A model generated the notes under the pieces. That model worked only from the letters and a program-made list of their open reading frames with translations. It ran no database searches and was not told where the DNA came from. A stretch of DNA of 26,547 bases. Source: a virus. Positions 1,497 to 26,547 of this stretch are shown piece after piece. Positions within the stretch are counted from its first letter, which is position 1, and the number at the start of each line of letters is the position of its first letter. The translations under genes were made by a program, and so were the position numbers. The stretch covers positions 1 through 26,547 of IMG/VR virus record IMGVR_UViG_3300009788_000272. The stretch is one strand, 5' to 3'.

Positions 1497-4400
1497 TTAA
1501 GTTGTTGTCCCACTGACAGTTTGCTCTAAACTCAGTTGTTGGGTGACGTGCTCAAAGAAGACCTCTTCAGGTCTCACACCCTTCACCTCTCTACCAATAA
1601 TAGACCAAGCTGTATTACACTCGAATTCCTCATAACTTTTGATATCGTACCGCCGCCCATGGTACACGATCCAATCATCATTTGTAAAATGATAACAGGT
1701 GGGCAAATCTCTTGCGTCAATGATGAACATTCGAGTTCCAACATCATACGAGCCGCCCATTATGAACATCTTGTTTGCTGAGATTTGAGTAATTGATTGT
1801 ACAACCTCCCTAGCAATTTTTACAGGGAGTACAATACATTTTCGTACAACATTCACCGTTTTATCGACTGTCTTCACCCCTGATTGGTAATCTGTCGCAA
1901 CATCAACAATTTGATACACATCGGCTCTATGTCCGTATTGCCTCTTTAAGCTGTATAAGGTGCGTCGGATGAAACGACTTAATGTACGATTCTCAACCAC
2001 CGGAGTGGCGGGAGACTCTACAACCGCGACTACAGTTTGATTCAATGCTAAAGCACTGAATGGTGCTGCACCTATTGTCCCTGACAACCCTGTACTTTGA
2101 TTTAGTGTGAGGGTATTAGATAAGGATCGTTCAATGTCCAGGGTTCTACTTACACTTTGGTTCATCGAAAGGGCACTAGAAAGAGATCGAATAAAGATCG
2201 ACCCCGCCGCAGATGCATTTTGAGTAAATGCTATGGCATGATTCAGTGATCTTTCATAAACTTGCGGCGGAGTAAATCCTAGCCGCCCTGTAATGTCATT
2301 GGTATCTATACCCGTCGGCGTCGTATCAATACCACTTATAGTTTCGCTAGTTTTCACGGTGGACGTGAACTGCCCACTTTGAAGATACAGTTTTTTATCA
2401 GTAGAACCAATCCAAAGAGTATTCACACCATCCCAAGAAATATCTTGAGGAACAGTATCGACGCCGCTTACATTTTCACTATCTTTGATTGTTGAGGTAA
2501 ACTGCCCACTTTGGAGATACAACTTTTGGTCTATGTTCCCTACCCAGGGTGTATTTGTACCATCATAAGAGATGCCAGCAGTACCTAAATCAACGCCGCT
2601 TACATCCTCACTGGTTTTCAAAGTAGACGTGAATTGACCACTTTGAAGATACAGTTTATCAGCCTCGGCACCTGACCAAGGGGTATCAGTACCATCATAA
2701 GATATCCCTGAAGGAAATGCATCGACTCCACTTACATCCTCACTGTCTTTGAGAGTTGAAGTAAACTGCCCACTTGTTAGATACAGTTTCTTATCTGTGT
2801 CACCAGTCCAAGGGGTGTTAGTATAATCCCAGGAGACGGCCGTCACACTTCCATCAATGCTGCCTACAGCTTCACTAGTCTTTACAGTAGACGAAAACTG
2901 CCCACTTTGAAGATACAATTTATCAGCTTCTTGGCCGCACCAAGGAGTATTGAGTCGAGCAAAAATAGAACCGGCTATAGATACACTTTGATTCAGTGAA
3001 AGTGCATCAGAAAGAGAACGATCATAGTCAACAATCGTAGATACACTTTGATTCAGTGAGAGTGCATCAGCAAGAGGACGATCATAGTCAACAATTGTAG
3101 CTACATTCTGTGTGAATGCTATAACATTGTTTGCTGACTCGTTATACTCTACCCCCGCCTGTGGAAGTCCTCGCCCTACATAATTGTTAGTGCATATACC
3201 CTTGGGGAAGGTATCAACGCCACCAATAGACTGGCTGGTTTTCATAGTAGACGTAAATTGTCCACTCTGAAGATATAGTTTTTGATCTTCACCGATCCAA
3301 GGCGTGTTCGTTCCATCCCAAGAAATACCATGAGGATCAGAATCTACAGTTGTAACAAGCTGGCTGGTTTTGATTGTAGAAGTGAATTGCCCACTTGTAA
3401 GGTACAGTTTATCGGCTTGATCGCCTACCCAAGGAGTATTTGTACCGTCCCAAGAAATATCTCGCGGGGTCGTGTCAACGCCGCTCACATCCTGACTGTC
3501 TTTGATCGTAGAAGTGAATTGGCCGCTTGTAAGATATAGTTTTTGATCTGAATACCCACACCAGGGAGTGTTGGTACCGTCCGCAGAGATTCCAGACAGC
3601 CCAGAATCAATACTGGTAACATCCTCACTATCTTTTACAGTAGAGGTAAACTGACCGCTTTTTAGACGTAGCTTCTTCGACCCTCCGCCAGCGAAGGGAG
3701 TATTTGTACCATCCCAAGTTATACCATTGGGAACAATATCACCAGCGTTAATACTAGTTTTTAGAGTAGAAGTAAACTGCCCGCTTTGCAGGCATAGTTT
3801 ATCACCTTGACTACCAGTCCAAGGGGTATCATAGACTGGCGGTGGAATGTCTAATCTAGCATCAAAGTCATCAATGCAAGTACCACTGCTCGAACTGTCA
3901 ACTGTCGTTGTAACTAAACTAGTTTTGAGTGTGGAGCTAAATTGTCCACTAGTGAGATATAGCTTGTCCCCAGCAGTGCCGCACCAAGGAGTATCCGTGC
4001 CGTCCCAAGAAATACCAGTGGGGGTTAATTCAACACCACCAATAGACTCACTAGTCTTTATCGTGGATGTGAATTGGCCACTCGTCAGATATAACTTATC
4101 GTCCCCTTGTCCGATCCAAGGAGTATTGGTCCCGTCCCAAGAAACATCTATTGGAACGCCGTCAATACTTATTACAGCTTCACTGTCTTTGATCGTGGAG
4201 GTGAATTTACCAGACTGTAAGTACAACTTACGAGCAGTAGACCCAATCCATGGCGTATTAGTCTCATCGGAAGAAACGCCCCGGGGAGTAGTGTCAACAG
4301 TAGTAACATCTTCACTGTCTTTGAGTGTTGAGGAAAATTGCCCAGACTGACGGTACAGCTTATCCGCTGTTATGTACCCACACCAAAGTGTGTCGGTACC

Positions 4401-4532
4401 ATCCCAGGATATACCATCAAGATTAGAGTTGATGGTTGTTACATCTTCACTAGTTTTTACTGTCGTAGTGAACTGCCCAGACAATAAGAATAGTTTGTCT
4501 GTACCGTCACCAGAGAAGAGTGTATTGGCCAT
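1497..4532 (-). CDS. Giant 15-repeat (3 x 5) virion protein fused to a neck-like domain
   Basis: A 1011-aa protein. Residues 1 to about 690 hold 15 repeats of about 40 residues with the consensus DKLYLQSGQFTSTIKTSE, then V..VDTTP.GISWDGTNTPW.G. Repeats 5, 10 and 15 lose the SWDGTNTPW part and end in variants of ND..GRL, so the array reads as three sets of five, as in five-bladed beta-propellers. A second repeat of about 20 residues (RSLSDALSLNQSVS and variants) follows sets two and three and reappears at the C-terminus (QLSLEQTVSG). Residues about 850-990 form a distinct domain (GHRADVYQIVDVATDYQSG, then KIAREVVQSITQISANK, MGGSYDVGTRMFIID, DWIVYHGRRYDIKSYEEF). From its character and position this looks like a head-tail connector or neck protein. 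The start overlaps the glycosyltransferase stop (TAATG). The repeats may bind carbohydrate or decorate the neck; that is inference. Confidence 0.85.
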   Translation of the reverse strand: MANTLFSGDGTDKLFLLSGQFTTTVKTSEDVTTINSNLDGISWDGTDTLWCGYITADKLYRQSGQFSSTLKDSEDVTTVDTTPRGVSSDETNTPWIGSTARKLYLQSGKFTSTIKDSEAVISIDGVPIDVSWDGTNTPWIGQGDDKLYLTSGQFTSTIKTSESIGGVELTPTGISWDGTDTPWCGTAGDKLYLTSGQFSSTLKTSLVTTTVDSSSSGTCIDDFDARLDIPPPVYDTPWTGSQGDKLCLQSGQFTSTLKTSINAGDIVPNGITWDGTNTPFAGGGSKKLRLKSGQFTSTVKDSEDVTSIDSGLSGISADGTNTPWCGYSDQKLYLTSGQFTSTIKDSQDVSGVDTTPRDISWDGTNTPWVGDQADKLYLTSGQFTSTIKTSQLVTTVDSDPHGISWDGTNTPWIGEDQKLYLQSGQFTSTMKTSQSIGGVDTFPKGICTNNYVGRGLPQAGVEYNESANNVIAFTQNVATIVDYDRPLADALSLNQSVSTIVDYDRSLSDALSLNQSVSIAGSIFARLNTPWCGQEADKLYLQSGQFSSTVKTSEAVGSIDGSVTAVSWDYTNTPWTGDTDKKLYLTSGQFTSTLKDSEDVSGVDAFPSGISYDGTDTPWSGAEADKLYLQSGQFTSTLKTSEDVSGVDLGTAGISYDGTNTPWVGNIDQKLYLQSGQFTSTIKDSENVSGVDTVPQDISWDGVNTLWIGSTDKKLYLQSGQFTSTVKTSETISGIDTTPTGIDTNDITGRLGFTPPQVYERSLNHAIAFTQNASAAGSIFIRSLSSALSMNQSVSRTLDIERSLSNTLTLNQSTGLSGTIGAAPFSALALNQTVVAVVESPATPVVENRTLSRFIRRTLYSLKRQYGHRADVYQIVDVATDYQSGVKTVDKTVNVVRKCIVLPVKIAREVVQSITQISANKMFIMGGSYDVGTRMFIIDARDLPTCYHFTNDDWIVYHGRRYDIKSYEEFECNTAWSIIGREVKGVRPEEVFFEHVTQQLSLEQTVSGTTT
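2978..3097 (-). repeat. Recent 60-bp tandem duplication inside the repeat protein
   Basis: Two adjacent 60-bp units (2978-3037 and 3038-3097) differ at only a few bases. Each encodes one 20-residue copy of the LSLNQSVS / IVDYDRSLSD repeat. Other repeats of the same protein have diverged much more at DNA level, so this duplication is recent. Confidence 0.85.
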
Positions 4533-5176
4533 TAGCTCACCATACCGTGTACGGACTCAATAACTTCAACTAGACTAACTTCATTGAAATGGTGGCAAGG
4601 ATAATCAAAGTGTGCCCAGATTTGGAAGCCGGCTTTCTTCACTTTTTGACAAAATGAATAGTCGCCTCCAACTTCTACTGTGCCGTCTTTGTTCCACTGC
4701 CGCATAAATGGCTGCTGATCTTTTAATCTTTCGATCACTCGCCGCGATACTAAAAAGCAACCACTTCCAATCGCATCAACCTCTCTTAACCCGCCCATCT
4801 CTTCACAATAAGGCTGGTAACCTTGCTCACTCTCAATCCATTTCAGAGCATTAAAATACCAAGGTCGATCACCTTGTACCTTATTATGCCAAACTGGTGT
4901 TGGGCAGCCCACTAAATCACAATCGTACTCGACTAAATCAAGGGGATTGTTTATCGGCGGGTTGTCGGTATCAATTGATAACCAATAATCCTCACCACCA
5001 TTCAAGAAATCTTTCACGCAATGGTGGAGATTATTAACATAGGGTGAGTGTGTCGGACAATCATGTCTGATAATATAGCGAGAATCAGACAACATCCGAC
5101 AAATGGCAAAATGCACCATTTTATGCAGCCACCCGTCACCGTTTGGAACCGTAATGTAGACCCGCTTCTTAATCAT
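4532..5176 (-). CDS. GT-A fold glycosyltransferase
   Basis: A 214-aa protein. The N-terminus (MIKKRVYITVPNGDGWLHKMV) is a strand-turn-helix typical of nucleotide-sugar binding. DYWLSIDTDNPP at residues 63-74 carries a DxD-type motif (D69, D71) that would bind the metal and sugar nucleotide. Later come AIGSGCFLVSRRVIERL, and VGGDYSFCQKVKKAGFQIWAH followed by a conserved-looking CHHF. The last part resembles the G(E/G)D..FC...AG..IW..P..CxH end of GT2-like enzymes. Donor and acceptor cannot be told. The ATGA overlap with the upstream gene and the TAATG overlap with the giant repeat protein put it firmly in the virion operon. A virion protein, or host surface sugar, is therefore the likely target. 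Confidence 0.8.
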   Translation of the reverse strand: MIKKRVYITVPNGDGWLHKMVHFAICRMLSDSRYIIRHDCPTHSPYVNNLHHCVKDFLNGGEDYWLSIDTDNPPINNPLDLVEYDCDLVGCPTPVWHNKVQGDRPWYFNALKWIESEQGYQPYCEEMGGLREVDAIGSGCFLVSRRVIERLKDQQPFMRQWNKDGTVEVGGDYSFCQKVKKAGFQIWAHFDYPCHHFNEVSLVEVIESVHGMVS

Positions 5177-11336: not shown

Positions 11337-13007
11337 TTACAGAAACCTGCCAATATCTCTTCCTGTGACAATACTCGCAGCCAAGGGTAAGGCGATTTCA
11401 GCGTAATTGAGCGCGTGGGCCATGTGATCGGGCCCTGTAGTTATGTATGTAGCTTTTGGATTGCCGTTTTCATCTTTCTCGTATGTTCTCACCAAATTCT
11501 TCATGTGCTCCCTAAATTCAAAACTAACATCAGCGGGTAATTGAATTCGGTCACTATGAAATCTACCGAGTGTGGCATCTAGCCAATTAGTGCGGTCCAC
11601 AGTTGCGATGGGGGCACCTTCTTCTTCCTCGGTAACTGAGATTTCTTTCCCAGTTTTTCCTCTCCTATAGCGGCAGAGATGAACGTAGCCGTGGAAGCGT
11701 CTTGCAAATCGTCGCGCGTCATTTATTTGTGGGTCAGCATCAATCACACAGCCTAAAATTTGCCACGTTCTCATAAGCCTATCAAGTTCTTCAAACTTAT
11801 CCCCTGGAAGTTTGCCTTCCCATAATACTTTGGCGTAGGCCGCAGCGTTAATATCGAAACTGTAATCATTGAAAAAATATTCAACTACAACTACATGATT
11901 CAGCTTGCCTTGATCCACCCCCATTACTATTGTTCGGTCACCACCGGTCGATGGTTGAAGAGCTAGATCCTGCTTTGAGTAGTTCTTTATTGAGTCAACA
12001 ATTTCCTCTTCCACTACTTGCCCACCGTCAGGAATAAATGGCATACCAATTTTAGAGTTGTGGAACTCACATAAAGCTGCCTCATCTCCTAGGCCGCGAA
12101 AATGCGCTAGTGCAATGTCCTTTGGCCTAACAGTGTAAGAGTAAAGTTGATTGATATACCATGAGCGATGGTCGCCGTCCGTCTCTACTGTTGGTTTCCA
12201 TATTCCCTTACCGAGCCATTCCGGCTTCGTTTCCTGCTCTAACTTATGCTTACATTCCTTACACTTTAGGTAGCTCTCCCCTATCCTGGGGTCAGTAATA
12301 ACCTCTCCTACGATTTCAAAACAATCGGGCCAAAGTAATTCAGTCCATCGACTACAGTGTGGACATTGAAAAATATAATGCTCCTGCGTCCCTTGCATAT
12401 ACAGCTTATGAATTCCGTACTTTGGTATCGTTGGCGTTGAAATTGCCCAGACCTTTTTCTCCAAGTTACCTGATAGACGTTCTAAAGCCAACCAAATTTG
12501 CTTCTGATCCATCTCGTCCAGTTCATCCAAAATCAAAGTCGAGACTGGAATCCCCTTCAGGTTAGAGTCCCCACGACTCCCTCGAATATACAGATTTATT
12601 CCGCCCGCTTGTTTCAAAGCAATCGTATTAGTGTCTGTAAAGATTTGTTTTAGATACGGACTGTAGAGTAAAGCTACATTAAAGCGACCTTTTGCAAAAT
12701 CACCCGCGTTCTTTTCAGTTGGGAGCACGTACAAAACATCCTTTTTTCGTACATCAATCGTGTAGAATGCAATGTTAATGGCAACTTCCGTGATGCCCAT
12801 TTGAGCAGATTTCATAGCCGTGTTAAACGAAGCTTGGGAGTCATGGATTTCACGTACCCAAGGATGATATTTGTAGCCGTAGAAGCCTGAAAAATCGCCA
12901 CCCATTATGCGGCGGTGCGAGGCCCATCTAGAACACTGGTTCAGCGTACGGCTTTTTAGCCCCTCCGCAATAGACTCACGGAGCGCTGTTAAAAGTTCAC
13001 TACTCAT
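11337..13007 (-). CDS. terL: Terminase large subunit, lambda GpA-type
   Basis: A 556-aa protein. The ATPase half has KSAQMGITE at residues 66-74. This is a deviant P-loop with lysine at its front end, as in lambda gpA, rather than the usual GKT. Walker B is STLILDELDEMD (D161, E162). Two CxxC pairs (CPHC and CKEC) form the zinc ribbon found in GpA-family terminases. The nuclease half shows GVDQGKLNHVVVVEYF, CVIDADPQINDARRFARRF and GPDHMAHALNYAEIAL, supplying the metal-binding aspartates. The enzyme cuts concatemers and pumps DNA through the portal. The start overlaps the upstream acidic gene by four bases (ATGA). Confidence 0.95.
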   Translation of the reverse strand: MSSELLTALRESIAEGLKSRTLNQCSRWASHRRIMGGDFSGFYGYKYHPWVREIHDSQASFNTAMKSAQMGITEVAINIAFYTIDVRKKDVLYVLPTEKNAGDFAKGRFNVALLYSPYLKQIFTDTNTIALKQAGGINLYIRGSRGDSNLKGIPVSTLILDELDEMDQKQIWLALERLSGNLEKKVWAISTPTIPKYGIHKLYMQGTQEHYIFQCPHCSRWTELLWPDCFEIVGEVITDPRIGESYLKCKECKHKLEQETKPEWLGKGIWKPTVETDGDHRSWYINQLYSYTVRPKDIALAHFRGLGDEAALCEFHNSKIGMPFIPDGGQVVEEEIVDSIKNYSKQDLALQPSTGGDRTIVMGVDQGKLNHVVVVEYFFNDYSFDINAAAYAKVLWEGKLPGDKFEELDRLMRTWQILGCVIDADPQINDARRFARRFHGYVHLCRYRRGKTGKEISVTEEEEGAPIATVDRTNWLDATLGRFHSDRIQLPADVSFEFREHMKNLVRTYEKDENGNPKATYITTGPDHMAHALNYAEIALPLAASIVTGRDIGRFL

Positions 13008-13462
13008 TCATCTTCGTCCCACTCGTCCTCGGTATCTCCCCTAACAACATCGAAGCTCACACCTGACTCCATTCCTAATTCTTCCTCGACTTCTTCCTCG
13101 ACTTCTTCCTCTACCTCTTTCTCTTCTTCCTCTACCTCTATCGCTACCTTTACCTTTACCTTTACATCTACATCCACTGCTTCCTCTACCTCTACCTCTA
13201 CCTCTTCCTCATCATTCTCAATGCGATCCCACAAATCTTCATCCTTGTCCTGCCAGCGGCCTTCAACCCACATCTTTTTAACAGGGGGTAGACCACTTCC
13301 ATCTTTCACCTCTAACGCGATGGCACGAACATCTTCTTCTTCGCCTGGGATGTAAAGTGTCGCATCTTCAGCCATGCCACGACGAACAATTGCCGTACCA
13401 TCAGTATAGATAACCTTGGCAATAAATGTCGAATAGTGGCGGTATGGATTCTTCAGCAACAT
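13004..13462 (-). CDS. Acidic low-complexity protein upstream of TerL
   Basis: A 152-aa protein. Residues 1-80 look folded (YRHYSTFIAKVIYTDGTAIVRRG, then LYIPGEEEDVRAIALEV). Residues about 83-130 are nearly pure E/V/D/K in alternation (EVEVEVEEAVDVDVKVKVKV, later EEEVEEEVEEE), coded by hexanucleotide repeats. The end is also acidic. Its position directly before terL with an ATGA overlap would suit a small terminase, but no helix-turn-helix is visible and I would not assign that. The N-terminal half may be an independent small domain. The array length probably varies by slippage. Confidence 0.7.
   Translation of the reverse strand: MLLKNPYRHYSTFIAKVIYTDGTAIVRRGMAEDATLYIPGEEEDVRAIALEVKDGSGLPPVKKMWVEGRWQDKDEDLWDRIENDEEEVEVEVEEAVDVDVKVKVKVAIEVEEEEKEVEEEVEEEVEEELGMESGVSFDVVRGDTEDEWDEDE
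13079..13216 (-). repeat. Simple-sequence hexanucleotide repeats coding E/V/K runs
   Basis: On the minus strand this reads as runs of GAGGTA, then AAGGTA, then GAAGTCGAGGAA-type units. The repeats are in frame and lie in the acidic protein. Such arrays change length by slippage without breaking the frame. Confidence 0.85.
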
Positions 13463-13538: not shown

Positions 13539-13856
13539 TTATTCCGGCTCTTCATCGGATTGGGGAGGTGGCTCGATAAATACAAGTAGGGAGAGGATGA
13601 TCTTTAAGATTGCAGGCCAGTTTTCAATAAACCAGTCCCAAATCTCCGTCAACATCTCCCGCCAGTCTAAACCAGTTTTCAAAGTCCAAGGAGCTTGAGG
13701 GACGCCACTTTCTACAGCGGCCTTCCACTCACTTACTTTAGCGGGGTCACGAGAGCCCGTTACAATTTTCTGGTACGTTTTACGGTCTATCTTTCCATGT
13801 CGCCACTGACGCCGGGCAACACGTCGAACTTTTCTACCGAAGTTAAAAGCGAACAT
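13539..13856 (-). CDS. Small basic protein with one C-terminal membrane helix
   Basis: A 105-aa protein. The start is basic (MFAFNFGRKVRRVARRQWRHGKIDRKTYQKIVTGSRDPAK). There is a tryptophan-rich amphipathic part (WREMLTEIWDWFIENW), then one hydrophobic segment (PAILKIILSLLVFI) and a short acidic tail. The layout resembles the 87-aa product of 16876-17139: arginine-rich start, then a hydrophobic C-terminal helix. The ATG overlaps the stop of the DUF1360-like gene (TAATG), with GAGGAG upstream. A membrane role, such as a holin-like or membrane-anchoring peptide, is possible; no family is recognised. Confidence 0.7.
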   Translation of the reverse strand: MFAFNFGRKVRRVARRQWRHGKIDRKTYQKIVTGSRDPAKVSEWKAAVESGVPQAPWTLKTGLDWREMLTEIWDWFIENWPAILKIILSLLVFIEPPPQSDEEPE

Positions 13857-14176
13857 TATTCATTCTCCTCTGAGTCAATCTCATCAAGAGCCAAGAATAG
13901 CTGAGCAATTCCTAGTGATGCAAGACTTGCAATTGTTACAATCCCGAAAGATATCAAAATAAACCGTTCCAATGGTAACAAGCCAAATTTTCCCCACACT
14001 ACTACGAACGCAAGCCAATGACTCAAGCAATACGGACAGTGAATCAACTCTCTCGCCCGCCGGCCTAACTTTGATACTTGAATTCTCCAAGGCTCCATGA
14101 CGTTGGATGTGGAAACTGTCATCGTGATGCTGGCGACAGCAAGTCCGATCAGTAACATCTCAACTAATAAATGCAT
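13856..14176 (-). CDS. DUF1360-like small membrane protein
   Basis: I use the ATG at 14176 (106 aa), which overlaps the thioredoxin-like stop as TGATG. There are three hydrophobic segments: residues about 3-22, 55-66 and 70-95. Between the first two lies RRARELIHCPYCLSHWLAFVV. A CPxC....W motif next to a membrane helix is the hallmark of DUF1360 proteins, known in phages and bacilli with no firm function. The two cysteines face the membrane surface. They could take part in thiol exchange with the thioredoxin-like neighbour, which is inference from context. The acidic end DEIDSEENE is cytoplasmic or periplasmic, undetermined. Confidence 0.7.
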   Translation of the reverse strand: MHLLVEMLLIGLAVASITMTVSTSNVMEPWRIQVSKLGRRARELIHCPYCLSHWLAFVVVWGKFGLLPLERFILISFGIVTIASLASLGIAQLFLALDEIDSEENE

Positions 14177-14784
14177 CAATAAACAGCGTAATCAACGGTT
14201 TTCTTCCCATTCTTTTCCAGAACAGACCTGATTCGCGCTTCAACTTTCTTGCTAACATTAGAGTTTATTCCTACAACTCGCTTAACCTCTTCATCGTCAG
14301 TATAAACTATAGCTGTAGGAAGGAGCCCAACCCTACTCTTCTTTGCTTCTTCTTGATTCTCGTCGAAGTCAATGTAAAATACATCAAACCCCTCTGCCTT
14401 CAACTTGTCGCCAATCACTTTCATTTGGGGGCAGAATTTACACCACTCCGCTGTCCAAACAAGTAGGTAATTCGGAGGGTACTCTACTTTGTCCGCCGCC
14501 GAATCTTTAGCCGCCGCTTCCTTAGCGGAAGCAGTGGAGGGTCGATGTTGGGCGGACTTTCCGTCGATGTGTTCGGAAGTTTTGGACAGTTTTGCAGGTC
14601 TAAATAATCGTCCGCTATGTCCGTCGCCTCCTCGATCTTCCTGCTCCACTTCACAGGCTTGCCTCTTGACAGGGCTAAAGCGATTGACCTCAACAGGCGT
14701 ACAAAACGTCGCCAAACCATAAGCAATCGTAACATAGAACATTCCTAGCGTAATAATGATTTTACGTTTCATTTCTTTCCCCAT
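14176..14784 (-). CDS. Membrane-anchored or exported thioredoxin-like protein
   Basis: Start taken at the ATG at 14784 (202 aa), overlapping the protease stop as TAATG. A start four codons later (MKRKIII) has GGGGAAAG in front and is equally possible. Residues about 6-28 are a signal or anchor helix (KRKIIITLGMFYVTIAYGLATFC). A polar, low-complexity linker runs to about residue 100. The thioredoxin fold follows: YLLVWTAEWCKFCPQMKVI with the redox pair C115-C118, FDVFYIDFDEN, and RVGLLPTAIVY with the cis-proline P156. It would act outside the cytoplasmic membrane as a disulfide reductase or isomerase. Its tight linkage with a C1 protease and a CPxC membrane protein suggests a shared task. Confidence 0.85.
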   Translation of the reverse strand: MGKEMKRKIIITLGMFYVTIAYGLATFCTPVEVNRFSPVKRQACEVEQEDRGGDGHSGRLFRPAKLSKTSEHIDGKSAQHRPSTASAKEAAAKDSAADKVEYPPNYLLVWTAEWCKFCPQMKVIGDKLKAEGFDVFYIDFDENQEEAKKSRVGLLPTAIVYTDDEEVKRVVGINSNVSKKVEARIRSVLEKNGKKTVDYAVY

Positions 14785-15812
14785 TACCAAATCTGATAAT
14801 CTGGGATATTAACCCGAGGGTATCCCACATATCCGCTTAAAGCAATACTATCACCTTGCCTTAATGCGTAGTTAATTGCACTTGCATCGGCCCAAAAACT
14901 ACCGGCGGGCTGATCGTGGCGTGTAGGACCACTAACCCAATCTGATCCCCAAGAGTTTTGAACTAATGCGCCTCGTCGCCTAGATTTATCGTCAATTCCA
15001 AGGATCACCATTGCGTGATACCAAGGACGACGTGAACGCCGCAAGAAACCATCCTTGTCTCGCTTAGTATTAAAACCAGCGTTACTACACATTGCTACGG
15101 GGTAGCCGTTTGCAACTGCGTCACGACACTCCTCCCAAGAACGTACAATAGCACAAGTTTTTACTGGGTGTAAACGACAGAGGGGTTCTAAGATATTAGG
15201 TACACCAGTCTTCCCTAACTTACGTGCAACTGCCCCACTGTAGTTAGTATAGTCATACTTCCCATTCTCATACGCTTGACGGAGTAGGATGCCCCACTCT
15301 CGAACAAATTCAGATGCCCAAACTCCCGTGGAGCCATCCGATCTGCGAAGGCGGCCAGCACCAACCTCAACGCGTGAGCCAGCATAGATAATTTCCGTAG
15401 CACATTTTGTAACCCACATCTCAGGACGGTTGAGCATAAGGATCTGCACAGCCGTCAACACATCGACGCCAAGTCCAAAGGCATGTGCAACACAATCACC
15501 AATCTCTTGGTAATGCGGAACTAAGGGATTCTTGGTAATCTCTTCAAAAAACTTATAGAGTAAGACTACCTTGCCCCTACCACTGCCCTTAATTGACTCA
15601 TATTGTTGGCTTAGAAATGGTTCTGGGTGAGTTCGTATGAATTCCTCGCGAGCAGCCGAGCTATCAACCCAACCACATTGAAGTGGGCGAATTGTTTTAG
15701 CATTGAGTCCTTTTGGAAATCCATCACCGTAGCCACGCTTACTAAACAGGCCACCAGAGAGGATGCCCCCCGCTGCCCCCATGAGCCATTTTAACATCTC
15801 ACGTCGGTACAT
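14784..15812 (-). CDS. Papain-like (C1) cysteine protease with Tat-type leader
   Basis: A 342-aa protein. The start YRREMLKWLMGAAGGILSGG is a twin-arginine-like leader (RR at 3-4, then a hydrophobic glycine/alanine-rich stretch), suggesting export of a folded protein. The papain triad is in order: QEIGDCVAHAFG with Cys107 and an upstream Gln102 for the oxyanion hole; WYHAMVILGIDD with His266; ALVQNSWGSDW with Asn286. NSWG is the family signature. Extra cysteines at 137, 212, 220, 229 and 242 could form disulfides. No pro-domain is obvious. Genes on both sides also code exported proteins. A role in opening or remodelling the host envelope, or cleaving a virion protein, is inferred only from context. 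Confidence 0.85.
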   Translation of the reverse strand: MYRREMLKWLMGAAGGILSGGLFSKRGYGDGFPKGLNAKTIRPLQCGWVDSSAAREEFIRTHPEPFLSQQYESIKGSGRGKVVLLYKFFEEITKNPLVPHYQEIGDCVAHAFGLGVDVLTAVQILMLNRPEMWVTKCATEIIYAGSRVEVGAGRLRRSDGSTGVWASEFVREWGILLRQAYENGKYDYTNYSGAVARKLGKTGVPNILEPLCRLHPVKTCAIVRSWEECRDAVANGYPVAMCSNAGFNTKRDKDGFLRRSRRPWYHAMVILGIDDKSRRRGALVQNSWGSDWVSGPTRHDQPAGSFWADASAINYALRQGDSIALSGYVGYPRVNIPDYQIW

Positions 15813-15834
15813 TACTGTGCCCCCTACGGATTAG

Positions 15835-16611
15835 TCAAAACTGTGCTGCGTAATAACGCAAACCCTTAGCAATCTCCCCCCACAAAGCTTGATGTTGGTC
15901 GGGAGTTTCGAGTTTACCCTGCCCAGCTAACGTTTTCATAGTTGTCTGGAGTTCTCGTAACACAGGTAACCAAGCGGGTAGAGAATCGCCCAATGCTTGC
16001 TTGTTAGCATTGGAAGTAGCTGCAATAATATCATCTACTTCCTGTAAAACATCAGCGGCAATTTGTGCAGCAACGCTCTCAAAACTGCCAGCCAGATTTT
16101 CCGCCTCATCCTTTGGCAGTCTATTAACGGCGCACCAATAAGCTACCCACTTATCAGAACTAGCATTAACATCTGGTCGAGGTATGATAGGAGGTTCGTT
16201 TCCTTCTACTGTTACAATATGAACTGCAACATCAACTGTACCCTCATAAGCACACCCTATAATAAACATATACCTTCCCGGCTTACGAGCACTGAATACT
16301 GCACGCTGCCCGTCACGGTAAACCTCAAAATCCGCTGCATCAGGTACTAAAATCCACTTAAAAGATTCCGCTGTACTCTCAGTCAGATCAAATCGAACAA
16401 GTTCGCCAACTTCAGCGACTTCTTGAGCGTTAATCACAACTTTGGCAACATTCTCAGATTGAACATCCTCCGGTCCCTGACAGTATGCATTAACCGCACT
16501 CGCGGTCGAAGGGAGCACTGAGGTAGGTAAATTCAAGTAGGGACTAACCAGCAGCCCAGTACCTACTGTAACCGCAACTAAAAGTGCGGCAGTTTGAAGA
16601 CTTTTCCACAT
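15835..16611 (-). CDS. Exported protein with Ig/PKD-like domain
   Basis: A 258-aa protein with GAGGAA before the ATG. Residues 1-40 are a signal or anchor (WKSLQTAALLVAVTVGTGLLV). Residues about 55-135 read as an Ig/PKD-like beta-sandwich: VVINAQEVAEVGELVRFDLTE, then FKWILVPDAADFEVYRDGQRAVFSARKPGRYMFIIGCAYEG, then VAVHIVTV. A proline-rich hinge (EPPIIPRPD) leads to a helical C-terminal domain of about 110 residues. PKD-like domains often serve adhesion or protein contacts outside the cell. It precedes the C1 protease and may be its partner or substrate-binding subunit. No enzyme motif seen. Confidence 0.75.
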   Translation of the reverse strand: MWKSLQTAALLVAVTVGTGLLVSPYLNLPTSVLPSTASAVNAYCQGPEDVQSENVAKVVINAQEVAEVGELVRFDLTESTAESFKWILVPDAADFEVYRDGQRAVFSARKPGRYMFIIGCAYEGTVDVAVHIVTVEGNEPPIIPRPDVNASSDKWVAYWCAVNRLPKDEAENLAGSFESVAAQIAADVLQEVDDIIAATSNANKQALGDSLPAWLPVLRELQTTMKTLAGQGKLETPDQHQALWGEIAKGLRYYAAQF

Positions 16612-16622
16612 GGTATGATTCC

Positions 16623-16871
16623 TCAGAGATAAAAACGTGCTCTCGTAATCCTACCAGACCAACGAACCTGCGTCTCAACAAAACAATCTTCGCAAACATG
16701 TTTCCCTGCATATTTCACGACGTTGCCACATTTGCAAATAGGTAACCCTGTGTCTTGATCTGGTAGCATTGCTTTCCCAGGGCGGCCGGATGCAGGGGAG
16801 TCCGGCCGCCCACGGTTATTTTTACCCCGCCTACGGCGGCGTCTTATCGCTCGTCTTGAGCGTCTTAACAT
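16623..16871 (-). CDS. Small zinc-ribbon protein with arginine-rich start
   Basis: Taken from the ATG at 16871 (82 aa), four bases after the previous stop, although no clear ribosome site is seen. MLRRSRRAIRRRRRRGKN is strongly basic. The C-terminal part holds ICKCGNVVKYAGKHVCEDCF, a CxC...CxxC zinc-ribbon. Two GC-rich hairpins (16780-16811 and 16827-16839) lie inside the coding stretch. The true gene may therefore start at the ATG at 16769 (48 aa, MLPDQDTGLPICKC), with the hairpins in its leader. A nucleic-acid-binding or structural role is possible. No named family recognised. Confidence 0.55.
   Translation of the reverse strand: MLRRSRRAIRRRRRRGKNNRGRPDSPASGRPGKAMLPDQDTGLPICKCGNVVKYAGKHVCEDCFVETQVRWSGRITRARFYL
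16780..16811 (-). other. Strong GC hairpin inside or before the zinc-ribbon gene
   Basis: GGGCGGCCGGA pairs perfectly with TCCGGCCGCCC (11 bp, 10-base loop). A second hairpin, CCGCC-TAC-GGCGG, lies 15 bases away at 16827-16839. There is no T-run, so a factor-independent terminator is unlikely. An attenuator, RNA-processing site or protein-binding site is possible. Confidence 0.6.
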
Positions 16872-16875
16872 TGAA

Positions 16876-17139
16876 TCACCAGTTAAAGATTTCCCTGATG
16901 GCTTCAATAAGCTCAAGAATGAACTCGACTAACTGCATAATGAAGTTGACATCAATGTCAATCCCATCATCAGACGCCACATCCTGCGCCGCAGCATAGA
17001 ATGCCATTTGAGCATCGGCGTCGTTGGACTTCAACTTACGTAGAAATGTACCAACTCTTACATCAAGATAGTCCCTCGCAGCGCGACGTGCTACCCTAAT
17101 TGCCATTCGCCTCTTTCGTCTTCGGCTCATCTTAATCAT
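16876..17139 (-). CDS. Small arginine-rich protein with C-terminal amphipathic helix
   Basis: An 87-aa protein; GAGGAG lies 7 bases before the ATG. MIKMSRRRKRRMAIRVARRAARDYL is highly basic. The middle is helical (FLRKLKSNDADAQMAFYAAAQDVAS). The end is one hydrophobic/acidic helix (FIMQLVEFILELIEAIREIFNW). This plan is shared with the 105-aa product of 13539-13856. The gene opens the block of exported and membrane proteins ahead of the packaging genes. A membrane-active or DNA-binding role cannot be told apart from sequence alone. Confidence 0.7.
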   Translation of the reverse strand: MIKMSRRRKRRMAIRVARRAARDYLDVRVGTFLRKLKSNDADAQMAFYAAAQDVASDDGIDIDVNFIMQLVEFILELIEAIREIFNW

Positions 17140-19802: not shown

Positions 19803-19991
19803 TTACTTAATCGGCCGCCAGGTTACAAATCGCAGGGCAACGTTTAAGGCACCTTGCACTGCAACTAAGCCGGCAAGCAATGTGGCGTTGTCTTGAATAA
19901 TCTCTTGACCCGCCATGTAGCCAACCACGCCGACTAATACTGTGAGGGCATTTACCCACACTGTCTTACTAGCATACCACTTCTTGTTCAT
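19803..19991 (-). CDS. Putative holin-like two-helix membrane protein
   Basis: I use the ATG at 19991 (62 aa) because GGAG lies 7 bases upstream. MNKKWYASKTVWVNALTVLVGVVGYMAG gives one membrane helix. ATLLAGLVAVQGALNVALRFV gives a second, and the end is WRPIK. The W..SKT.W.N start with two short helices is a frequent plan for small phage proteins annotated as holins. It lies apart from any recognised endolysin, so the label rests on form alone. The 97-aa protein at 5734-6027 is the other holin-like candidate. Confidence 0.68.
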   Translation of the reverse strand: MNKKWYASKTVWVNALTVLVGVVGYMAGQEIIQDNATLLAGLVAVQGALNVALRFVTWRPIK

Positions 19992-20017
19992 AACGTACTC
20001 CAATGTTTAAGTTGGGT

Positions 20018-22763: not shown

Positions 22764-23307
22764 CGTCTTTTCCCTCATTCTGTTGCCCAGCGATGGCTAT
22801 GACCACCCGCTCGCTGATACGGTCAACAATCGCTTCGTAGCCGTCTATCCCCTCTAGCTCGTCAGCCAGGATATTGATAATCTCCTGCCCTAACGCAAAA
22901 ACGGAAGCCTTGCTCAGCAGGGTGCCGAGAGAGACTTCCATTCTGTGACAACTATTTACGAGTTTGTCGATTGTGGCCAGATATGTATTAACGTTAGAGA
23001 AGGCCGCCAGCATGTCGCCGCGGTCGCCTTCCTCTACTAAATCAAGTCGGGTCTCGACCATCACTCTGGCCAAGTGGATTTCTTCGCGCAGACTGCGAAC
23101 TTCCTCGACCGCTGCCTGGCGATTGAGACGCGTCTGTAATTCTGGGTTGCTGAGCAGATAATGCCGCAGGCGGTCAGTGTGAGTCTTCTTTTGACCGTGG
23201 ACAAAGCAGAAATCGGACCCTTCAACAGAGAGTGCTTGGCACTGGCCTCTGCCGGTTGTAGCTTGACAACGCTGGGGATCTGCTGGATCGCATCTATCGT
23301 CGCGCAT
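22753..23307 (-). CDS. Zinc-finger protein, candidate small terminase subunit
   Basis: A 184-aa protein and the first gene of the long minus-strand operon, with GAGGAGG before ATG. The N-terminus has CQATTGRGQCQALSVEGSDFC and FVHG: a C14, C23, C34, H37 zinc-binding pattern often found in phage proteins annotated as small terminases or regulators. The rest is helical (VEEVRSLREEIHLARVMVETRLDLV, then NTYLATIDKLVNSCHRMEVSLGTLL, QEIINILADELEG), as expected for an oligomerising core. It lies about 9.7 kb from terL, which is unusual but known. A host-takeover regulator is the main alternative. Confidence 0.7.
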   Translation of the reverse strand: MRDDRCDPADPQRCQATTGRGQCQALSVEGSDFCFVHGQKKTHTDRLRHYLLSNPELQTRLNRQAAVEEVRSLREEIHLARVMVETRLDLVEEGDRGDMLAAFSNVNTYLATIDKLVNSCHRMEVSLGTLLSKASVFALGQEIINILADELEGIDGYEAIVDRISERVVIAIAGQQNEGKDDVH

Positions 23308-23445
23308 AGGGGTAACCCTCCTCTATTACCTAATACGGTTCCAAAACGATATTTCGGAAGTGAATTCCGGAAAAATCGTCAAAATAGTTAAAATAGTTAC
23401 AACCCGTACAATCTGCCCTCGACCTGCGGTCTTCCCTCGGACTAG

Positions 23446-23514
23446 TTGACGCGTCAACCACCTACAAGCTCCCCAGAATCAAAAAGAACGCGTTCTTTAG
23501 GTTTGACGCGTCAA
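23446..23514. promoter_or_regulatory. Three ACGCGT-centred palindromes (operator-like)
   Basis: TTGACGCGTCAA occurs twice as a perfect 12-bp palindrome (23446-23457 and 23503-23514). AAAGAACGCGTTCTTT, a perfect 16-bp palindrome, lies between them (23483-23498). Centres are 39 and 18 bases apart. Dimeric repressor operators look like this. They lie 140-210 bases upstream of the first gene of the minus-strand operon. Confidence 0.65.
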
Positions 23515-24637
23515 TGTACTGGTAACTTGTAGGTCCAGTCGGGATAGGGCCAAGGATGTAGGGTACCCCCCATAGGGGTGACGTCAGTTTGATCTGACCC
23601 TCCCCACCTGACAACCCCGACAACCCCCCGCTCCCACCTCCTCAGATCAATCATCACAATGTATACAGGTGGTACCACTGTACATACCAACACTATCATT
23701 ACCATCATCACAACCTACAAGCTACACAGTATCGGTTATCCTAATGGGGCCGATAATACTGCCCAGTCAAATTGTATCATCTGTACTTACTGTACAGGTT
23801 ATCAGTATCTTGCAAGTTAGCAGGTTATGGTGGTGGTGTCGAACCTGCAAGCTACGATGGTTGTCGGGGTCAGAGCATCTGTGCATATCAGGATAGCTGT
23901 ATCGAACAGGTAGTAATTGTGTCGATTGTAGCTTGCAGGTGGATTGTCGGGGTCATAGGGGGTGCCCCAATGCCGACTGGCGGGCCGGCACAACCAGCAG
24001 GATCAGAACAGGCGGTAATACCCCTCTGACCCCGACAACCTGCAAGATTCATACATAAGGGAAACGGTGGGTGGTGTATCTTTGACGGTTGTAGGGTTTG
24101 GGACGGGGGTGCTGGATATGGGAAACTTGTGGGTTGTAAGGGCTCTAACTGGCGTGCGGAATATCGCACATCGAACGCGCATTCGAGTTGTGCCAGGGGC
24201 AATGGTTAGTGGGTTAGTGATAGTTAATCGGGAGTTAATGAATATCAGGCTAAATCAGGGGATATTAACTGTAATCCCTGTATCAATCATCCCGAAAACA
24301 CTGTATATATAGTATATAGTTATTATAGTTAATAAAGTAGTTAAGAAGTTAATCATTCTAATTATATTCATTGTAGTAGTTGTAGCGGTTTTCTATACTG
24401 TACGGGTCAGAATGAAATAACTATTAACTTCGCCTGTATGACCTGTATAAGTCCTGTCTATATAAGGGGTTACGAGAGTTAAGCCGTCTGTGCCGCCTGT
24501 AGCACGATTAACTCCTTTAGCGGTTCTGAGGGCAGCATCGGGGCCTCGCTCCACAACCCCCCTCCACCTACAACCTACAGGCTACCATAGTGGGGGTGAG
24601 GGCATTGGCCCCCATATCCGGCTACCTGCAAGCTACC
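23460..24637. repeat. Recurrent motif ACCTRCAAGCTAC, both orientations
   Basis: Clear or near copies: 23460-23471, 23524-23534 (inverted), 23713-23727, 23808-23820, 23843-23855, 23928-23940 (inverted), 24038-24049, 24573-24586 and 24624-24637. The best copies read ACCTGCAAGCTAC or ACCTACAAGCTAC. A further copy lies far away at 21843-21855, and a weaker one at 25148-25160 inside a gene. Spacing is irregular, so it is not a CRISPR or tandem array. Binding site for a phage protein is the likely role. Confidence 0.7.
24296..24420. other. AT-rich island, possible origin-unwinding element
   Basis: About 125 bases of very high A+T (TATATATAGTATATAG, then repeated AGTTAAT-type words). It follows a stretch of repeated GTTAAT/GTTAGT words and an imperfect hairpin (24256-24280, CAGGG...CCCTG). 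Repeat motifs on both sides make a replication-origin reading attractive. No perfect DnaA box was seen. Confidence 0.4.
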
Positions 24638-24708
24638 ATAGTGGGGGTACTTGACCGATTGTATAGGATAGTAGGATTATATGGTTACTGTATCCTGTAG
24701 GTTGTAGG
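24567..24708. repeat. 17-bp direct repeat and 15-bp inverted repeat
   Basis: GCTACCATAGTGGGGGT occurs at 24581-24597 and 24632-24648. CCTACAACCTACAGG at 24567-24581 recurs in inverse at 24694-24708. These overlap the ACCTRCAAGCTAC copies and show that larger units have been duplicated. Confidence 0.8.
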
Positions 24709-24806
24709 TTGTGGGTTGTATAGGTTATCGGGGTCGCACCGGTTGTGAGGGCAATGCCGGGCCCGTACGTTACAACCCCGACAACCCTTGCCGGCCCCAC
24801 CTGCCC

Positions 24807-24995
24807 TTACACTCCGCACATTCGGAGAAACTCCCTTCTGCTGAAACAACCGCTAAAATCCTCATCATCGAAATCATCCGCAATTGCTTCAGCCAGAACT
24901 CTCAGCACAACCCGGCCCATCCGATCTTCCTGAACAGATGGTACACTTCGTACAGCCTTGATAATCGCTGCAAGCCGCCTATCAGTCATAAGCAT
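24807..24995 (-). CDS. Small protein, unknown function
   Basis: Start at the ATG at 24995 (62 aa, MLMTDRRLAAIIKAVRSVP) because AAGGAG lies 8 bases before it. It is helical and mixed charge, with RMGRVVLRVLAEAIADDFDDEDFSGCFSRREFLRMCGV at the C-terminus. The frame further upstream has no ribosome site. It follows the 57-aa gene in the same direction and is probably transcribed with it. No family recognised; small early or regulatory protein is likely from position. Confidence 0.65.
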   Translation of the reverse strand: MLMTDRRLAAIIKAVRSVPSVQEDRMGRVVLRVLAEAIADDFDDEDFSGCFSRREFLRMCGV

Positions 24996-25054
24996 AATTG
25001 GACTCCTTGTGTGTTTAATCATCGCGACCCCGACAATCGCGCCACTATGCGCCA

Positions 25055-25228
25055 CTACTGCGCCACCGGTTCCACTCGGAACGTACGGGCAGGAAATAGG
25101 GGGACAAGGCGCCGGATTGCAGCCCGTGCTTGTTCTAGGCTATCGTATGTAGCTTGCGTGGCGGGCTGCCGTGTGGCGGGTAGCTCCGTCCACTCCTTTG
25201 TGATTCGCCATTTTCGGGCTGTTTGCAT
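25055..25228 (-). CDS. Small protein, unknown function
   Basis: Start at the ATG at 25228 (57 aa, MQTARKWRITKEWTELPATR). GGGGAG stands close before the ATG and a strong promoter lies just upstream. The sequence alternates strand and helix (RKWRITKEW, ATYDSLEQARAAIRRLVPLFPARTFRVEPV), a plausible small alpha/beta fold. Function unknown. First gene of a short leftward unit with 24807-24995. Confidence 0.7.
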   Translation of the reverse strand: MQTARKWRITKEWTELPATRQPATQATYDSLEQARAAIRRLVPLFPARTFRVEPVAQ

Positions 25229-25248
25229 TATCTCCCCTTTCTGCTTGA

Positions 25249-25276
25249 AGTCTATCACGCCCCCTGCCCTTGTCAA
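25249..25276 (-). promoter_or_regulatory. Sigma70-like promoter for the two small minus-strand genes
   Basis: On the minus strand TTGACA (25276-25271), a 16-base spacer, and TAGACT (25254-25249). The -35 is perfect. The -10 has the key A at position 2 and T at position 6. It lies 20 bases before the ATG at 25228, leaving a short leader with the ribosome site. Confidence 0.75.
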
Positions 25277-25432
25277 CTCATAATGCCGCGCGCCCGGGGG
25301 TTGGATCGGGGCGCGGAAAACCGGATCGGGAGAAACAGCCCCACCAATGGGGGATTTCCAGCGGACGACCCCGATAACCGTTAAAATGAGCGATTATTTT
25401 CTCAGTATTCCCGCGCGTCCGCGCGTTTTCCC

Positions 25433-25460
25433 TTGCTATTCTCCCCCGGCGCTGTATGCT
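25433..25460 (+). promoter_or_regulatory. Candidate promoter for the plus-strand micro-genes
   Basis: TTGCTA (25433-25438), 16 bases, TATGCT (25455-25460). It lies about 40 bases upstream of the first small gene and points right. The match is moderate. The stretch 25277-25432 between the two promoters has no gene but holds GC-rich inverted words (CGCGCG...), one GACCCCGATAACC copy and two GGATCGGG copies. Confidence 0.5.
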
Positions 25461-25499
25461 TAATACAGACAAGGGAACACAACCGCGAAGGGGAAAACG

Positions 25500-25595
25500 A
25501 TGGTCGCAACACTCGCAACACTCGCAATTGTGGCGGTCGTGACGATTGTCCTAGTGGCCACGTCTGGCCCGAACATGCAAGGGAGGGGGTTCTGA
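25500..25595 (+). CDS. 31-aa membrane micro-protein
   Basis: ATG at 25500 with AAGGGG 8 bases upstream. The protein is MVATLATLAIVAVVTIVLV followed by ATSGPNMQGRGF: one membrane helix and a short polar tail. Very short, but the ribosome site, the promoter upstream and the next gene start 3 bases after its stop support it. It may modify a host membrane process early in infection; nothing in the sequence says which. Confidence 0.6.
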   Translation: MVATLATLAIVAVVTIVLVATSGPNMQGRGF

Positions 25596-25597
25596 TT

Positions 25598-25675
25598 ATG
25601 GCGATTCCGTACATTGTGGCGATTGTGCAAGAGATCAACGATTCTGCGGCTCGTGGCGATTCAACCGGCGATTAG
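25598..25675 (+). CDS. 25-aa micro-protein
   Basis: ATG at 25598 preceded by GGGAGGGGG and the shared leader GGGTTCTGATTATG. The product is MAIPYIVAIVQEINDSAARG plus a five-residue end. Too short for family assignment. Same leader as the genes at 25891 and 26190, which argues that it is translated. Confidence 0.5.
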   Translation: MAIPYIVAIVQEINDSAARGDSTGD

Positions 25676-25721
25676 GATTAGGCCAATTGTGCGACTTTTC
25701 CCAATTATTGGAGGACTACCG

Positions 25722-25856
25722 ATGAATACGATTAAGCGGATCAAGCGTTTTTTCCGGATTACAGCGGAAGACCAGCAAGAGTATCAGTTGCGCATCATAC
25801 GCCGGCAGAACCGGTTGGCCATGTTGCGACAATCGTACCGGCCGTGCGGATCGTAA
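25722..25856 (+). CDS. 44-aa basic micro-protein
   Basis: ATG at 25722 with GGAGGA before it. MNTIKRIKRFFRITAEDQQE begins a helical, arginine/lysine-rich peptide (QLRIIRRQNRLAMLRQSYRPCGS). No family recognised. Charge suggests nucleic-acid or membrane-surface contact. Confidence 0.6.
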   Translation: MNTIKRIKRFFRITAEDQQEYQLRIIRRQNRLAMLRQSYRPCGS

Positions 25857-25890
25857 ACAAAATGAGGGTTGAAACGAAAGGGTTCCGATT

Positions 25891-26157
25891 ATGACGACTA
25901 CAGTGAATGAGAAGCTAGTGGCAATCAGAACGGATTTGGCGGTTCTTCTGAGTGGGGTGGAGCGTAGCAATGTGCGGGATGTGCTGTGTGTGGCATTCGA
26001 TAGGGTTGCGCCAGATATGTCGTCTTACACGGCTACCTGGGTCGCGTCCATGCTGAGGGACACGGCAGTATCGACCGATTATGCGGGCGGAACCGATCTT
26101 TCCTTTGATCTGCATCGTGCGGCCCACGCGCTTGACAACGCCTGGGATGATTTCTAA
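25891..26157 (+). CDS. 88-aa small protein, unknown function
   Basis: ATG at 25891 within the shared leader GGGTTCCGATTATG. The product (MTTTVNEKLVAIRTDLAVLL) is helical, with VRDVLCVAFDRVAPDMSSYT and SFDLHRAAHALDNAWDDF. The VR..V..VA...A....SY pattern recurs in the next gene, so the two may be distant duplicates. Function unknown. Confidence 0.7.
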   Translation: MTTTVNEKLVAIRTDLAVLLSGVERSNVRDVLCVAFDRVAPDMSSYTATWVASMLRDTAVSTDYAGGTDLSFDLHRAAHALDNAWDDF

Positions 26158-26189
26158 GGGCAACGACAACTCTGAGGAGGGTTCCGATT

Positions 26190-26411
26190 ATGATGAGTGA
26201 ATGGAATACAGTAATCCCGAAGAAGAGTTCGACTATGACGACTGAACAGATTGCGCAGAGGATTCGGAAAGTGTTAGACACGCGGGTTGTACAGACTGAG
26301 CCGGATGTGCGAAATGGGGTGGTTATGGTAGCGCATCAGCTTGCCTCCCTTTGTGCCGAAAGTTACGGTCAACACACCCCTGATAGTTTCCTCCGGCAGT
26401 GCGGATTGTAG
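26190..26411 (+). CDS. 73-aa small protein, possible dual start
   Basis: ATG at 26190, in the shared leader (GAGGAGGGTTCCGATTATG). A second in-frame ATG at 26235 (58 aa, MTTEQIAQRIRKVL) is preceded by GAGTTCGACTATG, which resembles the same leader and gives an MTT start like the gene before. Both starts may be used. The core (VRNGVVMVAHQLASLCAESYG, then SFLRQCGL) resembles 25891-26157. Unknown function. Confidence 0.65.
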   Translation: MMSEWNTVIPKKSSTMTTEQIAQRIRKVLDTRVVQTEPDVRNGVVMVAHQLASLCAESYGQHTPDSFLRQCGL

Positions 26412-26420
26412 TGGTATTTT

Positions 26421-26455
26421 CGGAGGCGGGAAGGGGGCGCGCCCTCCCGCCTCCG
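26421..26455 (+). terminator. Strong GC hairpin after the micro-gene cluster
   Basis: CGGAGGCGGGAAGGG pairs with CCCTCCCGCCTCCG (14 pairs, one bulged A) around a short GC loop. It begins 10 bases after the last stop codon. No T-run follows because the 3' arm is continued as a tandem repeat. Likely a terminator whose tail was changed by repeat growth. Confidence 0.6.
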
Positions 26456-26547
26456 TCTGCCCGCCTCCGTCTGCCCGCCTCCGTCTGCCCGCCTCCGTCT
26501 GCCCGCCTCCGTCTGCCCGCCTCCGTCTGCCCGCCTCCGTCTGCCCG
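26447..26547. repeat. 14-bp tandem repeat at the right window edge
   Basis: The unit CCGCCTCCGTCTGC is present seven times without change, plus three bases, and runs off the edge. The first copy includes the 3' arm of the hairpin. It may be a true variable array or an assembly end effect. Confidence 0.9.

Follow-up and report, generated by a model that had tools for sequence, protein, structure and literature searches.

The 26,547-bp window analyzed here is the entire IMG/VR record IMGVR_UViG_3300009788_000272, a tailed-phage fragment coding on the minus strand, in which PHROG matches were clear for the terminase large subunit (TerL), portal, and major head protein, and weak for a major tail protein at its end. 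Upstream of TerL, between this gene and tail-fibre-like genes, lies a block of seven open reading frames (ORFs) encoding a basic helix protein, a zinc-ribbon-like protein, a PKD-like protein, a papain-like (C1-type) cysteine protease, a thioredoxin (Trx), a DUF1360 membrane protein, and a one-helix membrane protein (Table 1). All seven were present, uninterrupted, and tightly packed on the minus strand, with overlaps of 7 bp between C1 and Trx, 4 bp between Trx and DUF1360, and 1 bp between DUF1360 and the one-helix gene, bearing out the consecutive, coupled arrangement proposed in a first-pass annotation. The same annotation had treated these genes as one block, and their order and export or anchor signals are indeed kept in relatives as a conserved, export-directed unit. 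Overall, the block is genuine: it forms a late cassette that is conserved and associated with planctomycetes, and its core is the exported papain-like protease and the thioredoxin.

The C1-like protease and its partner proteins

The C1 protein scored 17.4 bits against Pfam Peptidase_C1 (E 0.0049), below the curated cut-off of 20.7, and a PDB profile search with it gave no match. We therefore rate it, from its sequence, as a putative remote C1-like family and no clear Pfam member. An AlphaFold model was poor (predicted local distance difference test, pLDDT, 46), and Foldseek with this poor model returned exclusively papain/cathepsin-type chains among the best 50 matches, xylellain included (best E 5e-7). 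The catalytic residues Q102, C107, H266, and N286 occur in order and their motifs are conserved across homologues, i.e., the Cys-His-Asn triad read as intact at first pass is present and retained. A second conserved cysteine, C242, was kept in 35/36 homologues and falls, in an alignment with ananain, at what we take to be the S2-pocket residue of papain. The Tat leader annotated earlier also held up: a twin arginine was found in 40/40 C1 N-termini and a hydrophobic window >1.0 in 34/40, so that the protein fits the pattern of a twin-arginine translocation (Tat) substrate and export is predicted. Leaders of distant homologues vary, being Tat-like, an N-terminal transmembrane (TM) segment, or none. 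Protein searches of a phage collection (50,697 records) with the window protein and with a distant homologue gave no match for C1, and a literature search for papain in planctomycete prophages returned nothing relevant.

Several relatives carry an in-frame insert in C1 placed exactly before the catalytic Cys (L011, L015, L018, L075, L090, L118, and L122); L018, L098, and L118 have a second one immediately behind NSWG, the catalytic Asn motif. The inserts ahead of the Cys start with Cys directly after GD and end in HN, which makes the catalytic Cys the +1 residue of splicing; two of the C1 inserts are short (~130–160 amino acids, aa) and some are long. Judged by these ends, the inserts are putative inteins. 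Their placement exactly at protease catalytic residues is of interest in its own right, and a literature search for an intein with a phage cysteine protease gave no match. Separately, the major capsid gene is broken after about residue 15–38 by ~0.9–1 kb in L008:12425-14491, L098:12282-14676, and L121:7764-10216; a similar interruption is suggested in L003 and L119, and may be an intein or an intron.

Among the partner proteins, the PKD-like protein combines an N-terminal hydrophobic segment, a PKD-like domain (~52–137), and a C-terminal helical domain (~150–256). Its AlphaFold model was good (pLDDT 84.7), and the best PDB matches were the PKD domains of the clostridial collagenases ColG/ColH (E 8e-5); a chagasin-type inhibitor had been considered for this protein and was dropped given these fold matches. 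Trx matched Pfam Thioredoxin (PF00085) above the cut-off (1.3e-7) and PDB thioredoxins by profile with E down to 1.5e-16; it has a thioredoxin fold with WCxxC, its CxxC is invariant in the homologue alignment, and an N-terminal hydrophobic segment is present in 42/54 homologues. The DUF1360 protein matched PF07098 (3.1e-6; 27.6 bits for a curated cut-off of 21) and phrog_781 (3.2e-8), with CPxC in 35/35 homologues; a literature search for DUF1360 together with lysis gave no match.

The basic-helix gene has homologues at the same place in L006, L007, L009, L010, L011, L015, and L018. The zinc-ribbon ORF was called at 16623-16916 with a TTG start, and an in-frame ATG at 16871 is likelier. A spanin reading of the one-helix protein was rejected: spanins were taken to have an N-terminal TM helix or lipobox with a periplasmic coiled coil, and the topology here is a basic N-terminus with a C-terminal TM helix. 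The same architecture, i.e., an Arg-rich N-terminus and a hydrophobic C-terminal helix, is shared by the basic-helix protein at the opposite end of the block, and the two are possibly related.

Table 1 Features of the cassette region in the window, and C1 frames with intein-like inserts in related loci
Feature	Coordinates	Strand	Evidence
Holin-like small membrane protein, 66 aa, two hydrophobic stretches	19803..20003	-	PHROG matches, relatives
Basic N-terminus and hydrophobic/amphipathic C-terminal helix, 87 aa, cassette-associated	16876..17139	-	ORF, homologues in relatives
Small zinc-ribbon-like protein (CKCG..C..C)	16623..16871, ATG start likely	-	Sequence, same place in many relatives
Exported/anchored PKD-like protein	15835..16611	-	AlphaFold model, PDB fold match, relatives
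Papain-like (C1-type) cysteine protease with predicted Tat leader	14784..15812	-	Q102, C107, H266, N286, second conserved Cys C242
Membrane-anchored thioredoxin, CKFC at 117-120	14176..14790	-	Pfam, PDB profile, relatives
DUF1360 membrane protein with CPYC	13856..14179	-	Pfam PF07098, phrog_781
Basic helical protein, single C-terminal TM helix	13539..13856	-	Relatives, dN/dS
Acidic 152-aa neighbour between cassette and TerL	13004..13462	-	First ~80 residues conserved in relatives
TerL, late-gene neighbour	11337..13007	-	phrog_675 E 2.1e-93
C1 frame with intein-like insert	L011:3051-5219
C1 frame with intein-like insert	L015:8546-10714
C1 frame with intein-like insert	L018:6913-10098
C1 frame with intein-like insert	L075:7150-8649
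C1 frame with intein-like insert	L090:437-1909
C1 frame with intein-like insert	L098:2432-4303
C1 frame with intein-like insert	L118:4819-7992
C1 frame with intein-like insert	L122:2-2152

Conservation, recurrence, and probable hosts of the cassette

Two C1-based scans found this neighbourhood at 19 IMG/VR loci, and a TerL scan, blind to the block, retained 80 of 293 loci; gene presence was counted on 27 distinct TerL-found contigs, each with at least 5.5 kb of upstream sequence. Of these, 25 contigs had C1, 25 had the PKD gene, 26 had Trx, 23 the one-helix gene, 22 the holin-like gene, and 13 DUF1360. All 22 contigs holding all four cassette genes showed one and the same arrangement, namely holin-like, PKD, protease, Trx, TerL (22/22). 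Ratios of non-synonymous to synonymous substitution rates (dN/dS) between the window and L006 were 0.15 for C1, 0.14 for PKD, 0.34 for Trx, 0.16 for DUF1360, 0.06 for the one-helix gene, 0.24 for the basic helix, and 0.04 for TerL. Given that relatives carry homologous genes in a matching order and that dN/dS is 0.06–0.34, the block is more than a chance assembly.

The two TerL-found contigs without C1 were L048, whose TerL is only 31% identical, and L046. In the latter, which also lacks the PKD gene, the slot is occupied by an exported Trx and two proteins resembling, by eye, exported or papain-fold enzymes. This substitution is a by-eye reading, since a PDB search of both proteins came back empty and databases lent it no support. 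A non-homologous replacement of the C1/PKD slot in this planctomycete phage region (L046:6316-7550) is possible.

Beyond the TerL clade, most of the distant planctomycete C1 homologues sit on long contigs of chromosomes, reaching 7.8 Mb. Trx adjoins C1 in 6/10 of these distant loci by hidden Markov model, and in two more an exported CxxC protein was seen there by eye. In closed planctomycete chromosomes, the C1-Trx pair stands beside terminases of other types: L154/L155 show the order C1, small membrane protein, exported Trx, and a different terminase type (nearest to those of haloarchaeal tailed viruses). At L162, a holin-like gene comes first, followed by genes for a PKD-like lipoprotein, an anchored C1, an exported CPAC protein, and the small and large terminase subunits. 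The cassette is thus modular and found with different phage lineages.

TerL relatives (61 and 64% identity) were found in Planctomycetota metagenome-assembled genomes (MAGs), on contigs of 444 kb and 291 kb, respectively; both contigs carry PSD1, a planctomycete-type family found in 0/14 control genomes, and the 291-kb contig holds the full cassette, with a C1 49% identical. Prophage flanks on two planctomycete contigs mixed phage-like and cellular families. A C1 profile, requiring a match over most of its length at E < 1e-17, hit 11/392 Planctomycetota genomes, with 1/400 Chloroflexota and 0/395 Desulfobacterota as controls; the sole Chloroflexota match was the Anaerolinea-labelled MAG used as a seed, in which TerL and C1 are on separate contigs. 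Set against these controls, the protease is specific to the phylum. A C1 pattern scan of genome contigs gave none that was confirmed. Phages carrying the cassette thus probably infect Planctomycetota, and from the position of its relatives on planctomycete contigs and genomes we infer the same host for the window phage itself, in line with the planctomycete host raised as possible at first pass.

Proposed envelope opening and its alternatives

The envelope of the large phylum Planctomycetota has been a matter of long dispute, and to our knowledge almost nothing is known of how phages exit from these bacteria. The first-pass annotation had proposed an envelope-opening system, noting that no classical endolysin was seen in the window. 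This observation stands for the 20 window ORFs scanned by family, as well as for six-frame searches with Amidase_2 and Phage_lysozyme. Likewise, neither Pfam nor PHROG identified a peptidoglycan hydrolase family in the block, and none was found in a Pfam scan of main-strand ORFs of at least 90 aa on the related contigs G003 (78.7 kb) and G016 (124.7 kb), or in the two regions adjoining the L047 phage; Amidase_2 and Phage_lysozyme gave no match on 19 contigs, while positive-control genomes did. A normal endolysin, holin, and spanin set had been named as evidence that would speak against the proposal. One part of it is present, i.e., a holin-like gene 2.7 kb upstream of the block, matching phrog_34682 ‘holin’ weakly (E 0.03) and not linked to the block at first pass, while endolysin and spanin were not found in these searches. 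Across 24 homologues of the holin-like protein, four matched phrog_34682 (best 0.009) and one matched the phrog_4712 holin (2e-5).

From homology, gene order, conservation, export and anchor signals, catalytic residues, intein positions, and recurrence beside other terminases, we infer, at about even chances, that the block supplies the core enzymes of a cassette with which Planctomycetota phages open the envelope at the lysis stage, carried among the late genes just ahead of TerL. Mobile inteins prefer indispensable sites, so their putative presence at both catalytic motifs counts in favor of this lysis-stage role. In such a scheme, the protease would fold in the cytoplasm and then exit through Tat, and the anchored Trx would hold the catalytic Cys107 as an active thiol in the oxidising periplasm, possibly by reducing a disulfide between Cys107 and the conserved Cys242 beside the active site. 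DUF1360, through its CPxC, may carry electrons across the membrane, and the PKD-like protein would bind the protease or position it at envelope material. Once the holin-like and one-helix proteins had collapsed the membrane, the protease, and perhaps Trx directly, would cut the proteins holding the planctomycete envelope together, allowing virion escape. The role of Trx may be simpler, i.e., keeping an exported Cys protease reduced.

Compared with holin-endolysin-spanin cassettes, including the T7-type order with lysis genes by the terminase, the block shares the terminase-adjacent late position, a small holin-like membrane protein, an export-capable enzyme that, like known endolysins, comes in Tat-led, anchored, or leaderless variants, and a spread over phage lineages. 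It differs in having a papain-type C1-like protease and no recognised peptidoglycan hydrolase, in the pairing of this enzyme with an exported Trx, a PKD protein, and sometimes DUF1360, and in having no recognised spanin. SAR (signal-arrest-release) endolysins of the P1 Lyz type are regulated by thiol chemistry, and they resemble the present system in being exported enzymes with a catalytic Cys that, here, may be redox-gated; the latter has, however, no SAR domain, a Tat-like leader, a dedicated thioredoxin gene, and a predicted protease fold. Bacterial C1 proteases such as xylellain (3ois) share the fold match obtained with the poor model and the Gln-Cys-His-Asn motifs, whereas the phage protein has QxxGDC instead of the usual QxxCGSC, the conserved Cys242 aligned near the S2 pocket, a phage late-gene setting, and putative inteins. 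DUF1360 (PF07098)/phrog_781 is a family with no assigned function, which the window protein joins by its match above the curated cut-off and its CPxC; here it accompanies the protease and thioredoxin in the cassettes of about half of the relatives.

A more specific version of the lysis-stage reading, which we consider doubtful, is that planctomycete phages exit by proteolysis and disulfide reduction of a disulfide-linked protein envelope layer and not by a peptidoglycan endolysin, with the protease redox-gated (Cys107-Cys242, opened by the dedicated Trx and DUF1360) and, in some phages, inactive until the intein before the catalytic Cys splices. The protein- and cysteine-rich wall assumed at first pass finds backing in the Planctomyces envelope, described as Cys/Pro-rich, disulfide-stabilised, and resistant to sodium dodecyl sulfate (PMC3035269), but planctomycete peptidoglycan sacculi are now established (PMC4432640, PMC4432595). 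The premise was therefore correct only in part.

Several points weigh against a lysis-stage role based on proteolysis. Planctomycete peptidoglycan is lysozyme-sensitive (PMC4432640), i.e., it is the layer that an endolysin would normally have to cut. The PHROG holin matches are weak, no spanin was recognised, DUF1360 is present in just 13/27 TerL-found contigs, and the region contains further, unknown genes in every related phage. The hydrolase negatives cover main-strand ORFs of at least 90 aa and ~20 window ORFs, and these contigs, none known as a complete genome, may hold an unrecognised peptidoglycan endolysin.

Peptidoglycan could also be the substrate of the C1-like protein itself, which would then be an endolysin in effect, a papain-fold enzyme now acting on the cross-links of peptidoglycan or on the bond between an envelope protein and peptidoglycan, with Trx as a redox helper only. 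The papain-fold NlpC/P60 and CHAP families are established peptidoglycan hydrolases, and the slot, the upstream holin-like gene, and the Tat-led, anchored, or leaderless variants all suit an endolysin, as does peptidoglycan in planctomycetes (PMC4432640). Yet motif order and Foldseek neighbours place the protein with C1 papain/cathepsin proteinases and not with NlpC/P60 or CHAP, and the papain-fold-like proteins seen by eye in the same slot of L046, which would fit, have no database support. We regard this alternative as rather unlikely; were it true, the cassette logic would be conventional and the enzyme family unusual.

Alternatively, during infection or lysogeny the exported protease and Trx might remodel proteins of the periplasm or the cell surface, e.g., for receptor removal, in a host takeover or exclusion function unrelated to lysis. 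C1-Trx clusters with small membrane proteins or lipoproteins occur in planctomycete chromosomes at L159:8951-11881 and L160:8951-11407, among ordinary cellular genes and with no phage structural genes visible nearby by eye; the C1-Trx unit may therefore act outside the lytic cycle, and the export signals are compatible with this. Near-universal retention in the TerL clade, a fixed late-gene place, and a holin-like neighbour are, however, atypical of accessory genes, and we hold this function to be unlikely. It is very improbable that virions contain the protease and PKD protein and use them to open the envelope on entry: the block does lie between tail-fibre-like genes and TerL, and PKD domains are known from surface-binding proteins, but the Tat-like leader (40/40), the anchored Trx, and the DUF1360 membrane protein mark products that are sent to the host envelope from within the cell.

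If the lysis-stage reading holds, the occurrence of this cassette next to several terminase types within the phylum, and in none of 50,697 phage records, would indicate an envelope layer that these phages must cut. It would also give a handle on the composition of that layer and a host marker for uncultured planctomycete phages.

Other features of the window and its relatives

The related phage contig G003 (L038-L039) carries TROVE/Ro60 and SPFH/Band_7 family genes. In the window, a glycosyltransferase-like gene (4532-5176; phrog_12406, 5.5e-6) lies between capsid and tail genes, where most relatives lack it. The adjoining 1011-aa protein (1497-4532) ends in ~160 residues that correspond to a conserved late-structural protein of relatives, ahead of which are fused ~850 residues of degenerate ‘SGQFTSTIKTSE..GISWDGTNTPW’ repeats; relatives mostly have the ~160-aa part only, with longer forms in some (L047, L115, L017). 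Positions 23300-26547 are without a convincing long ORF, and at the contig end a 14-bp repeat (CCCGCCTCCGTCTG) is present in 7.3 perfect copies.

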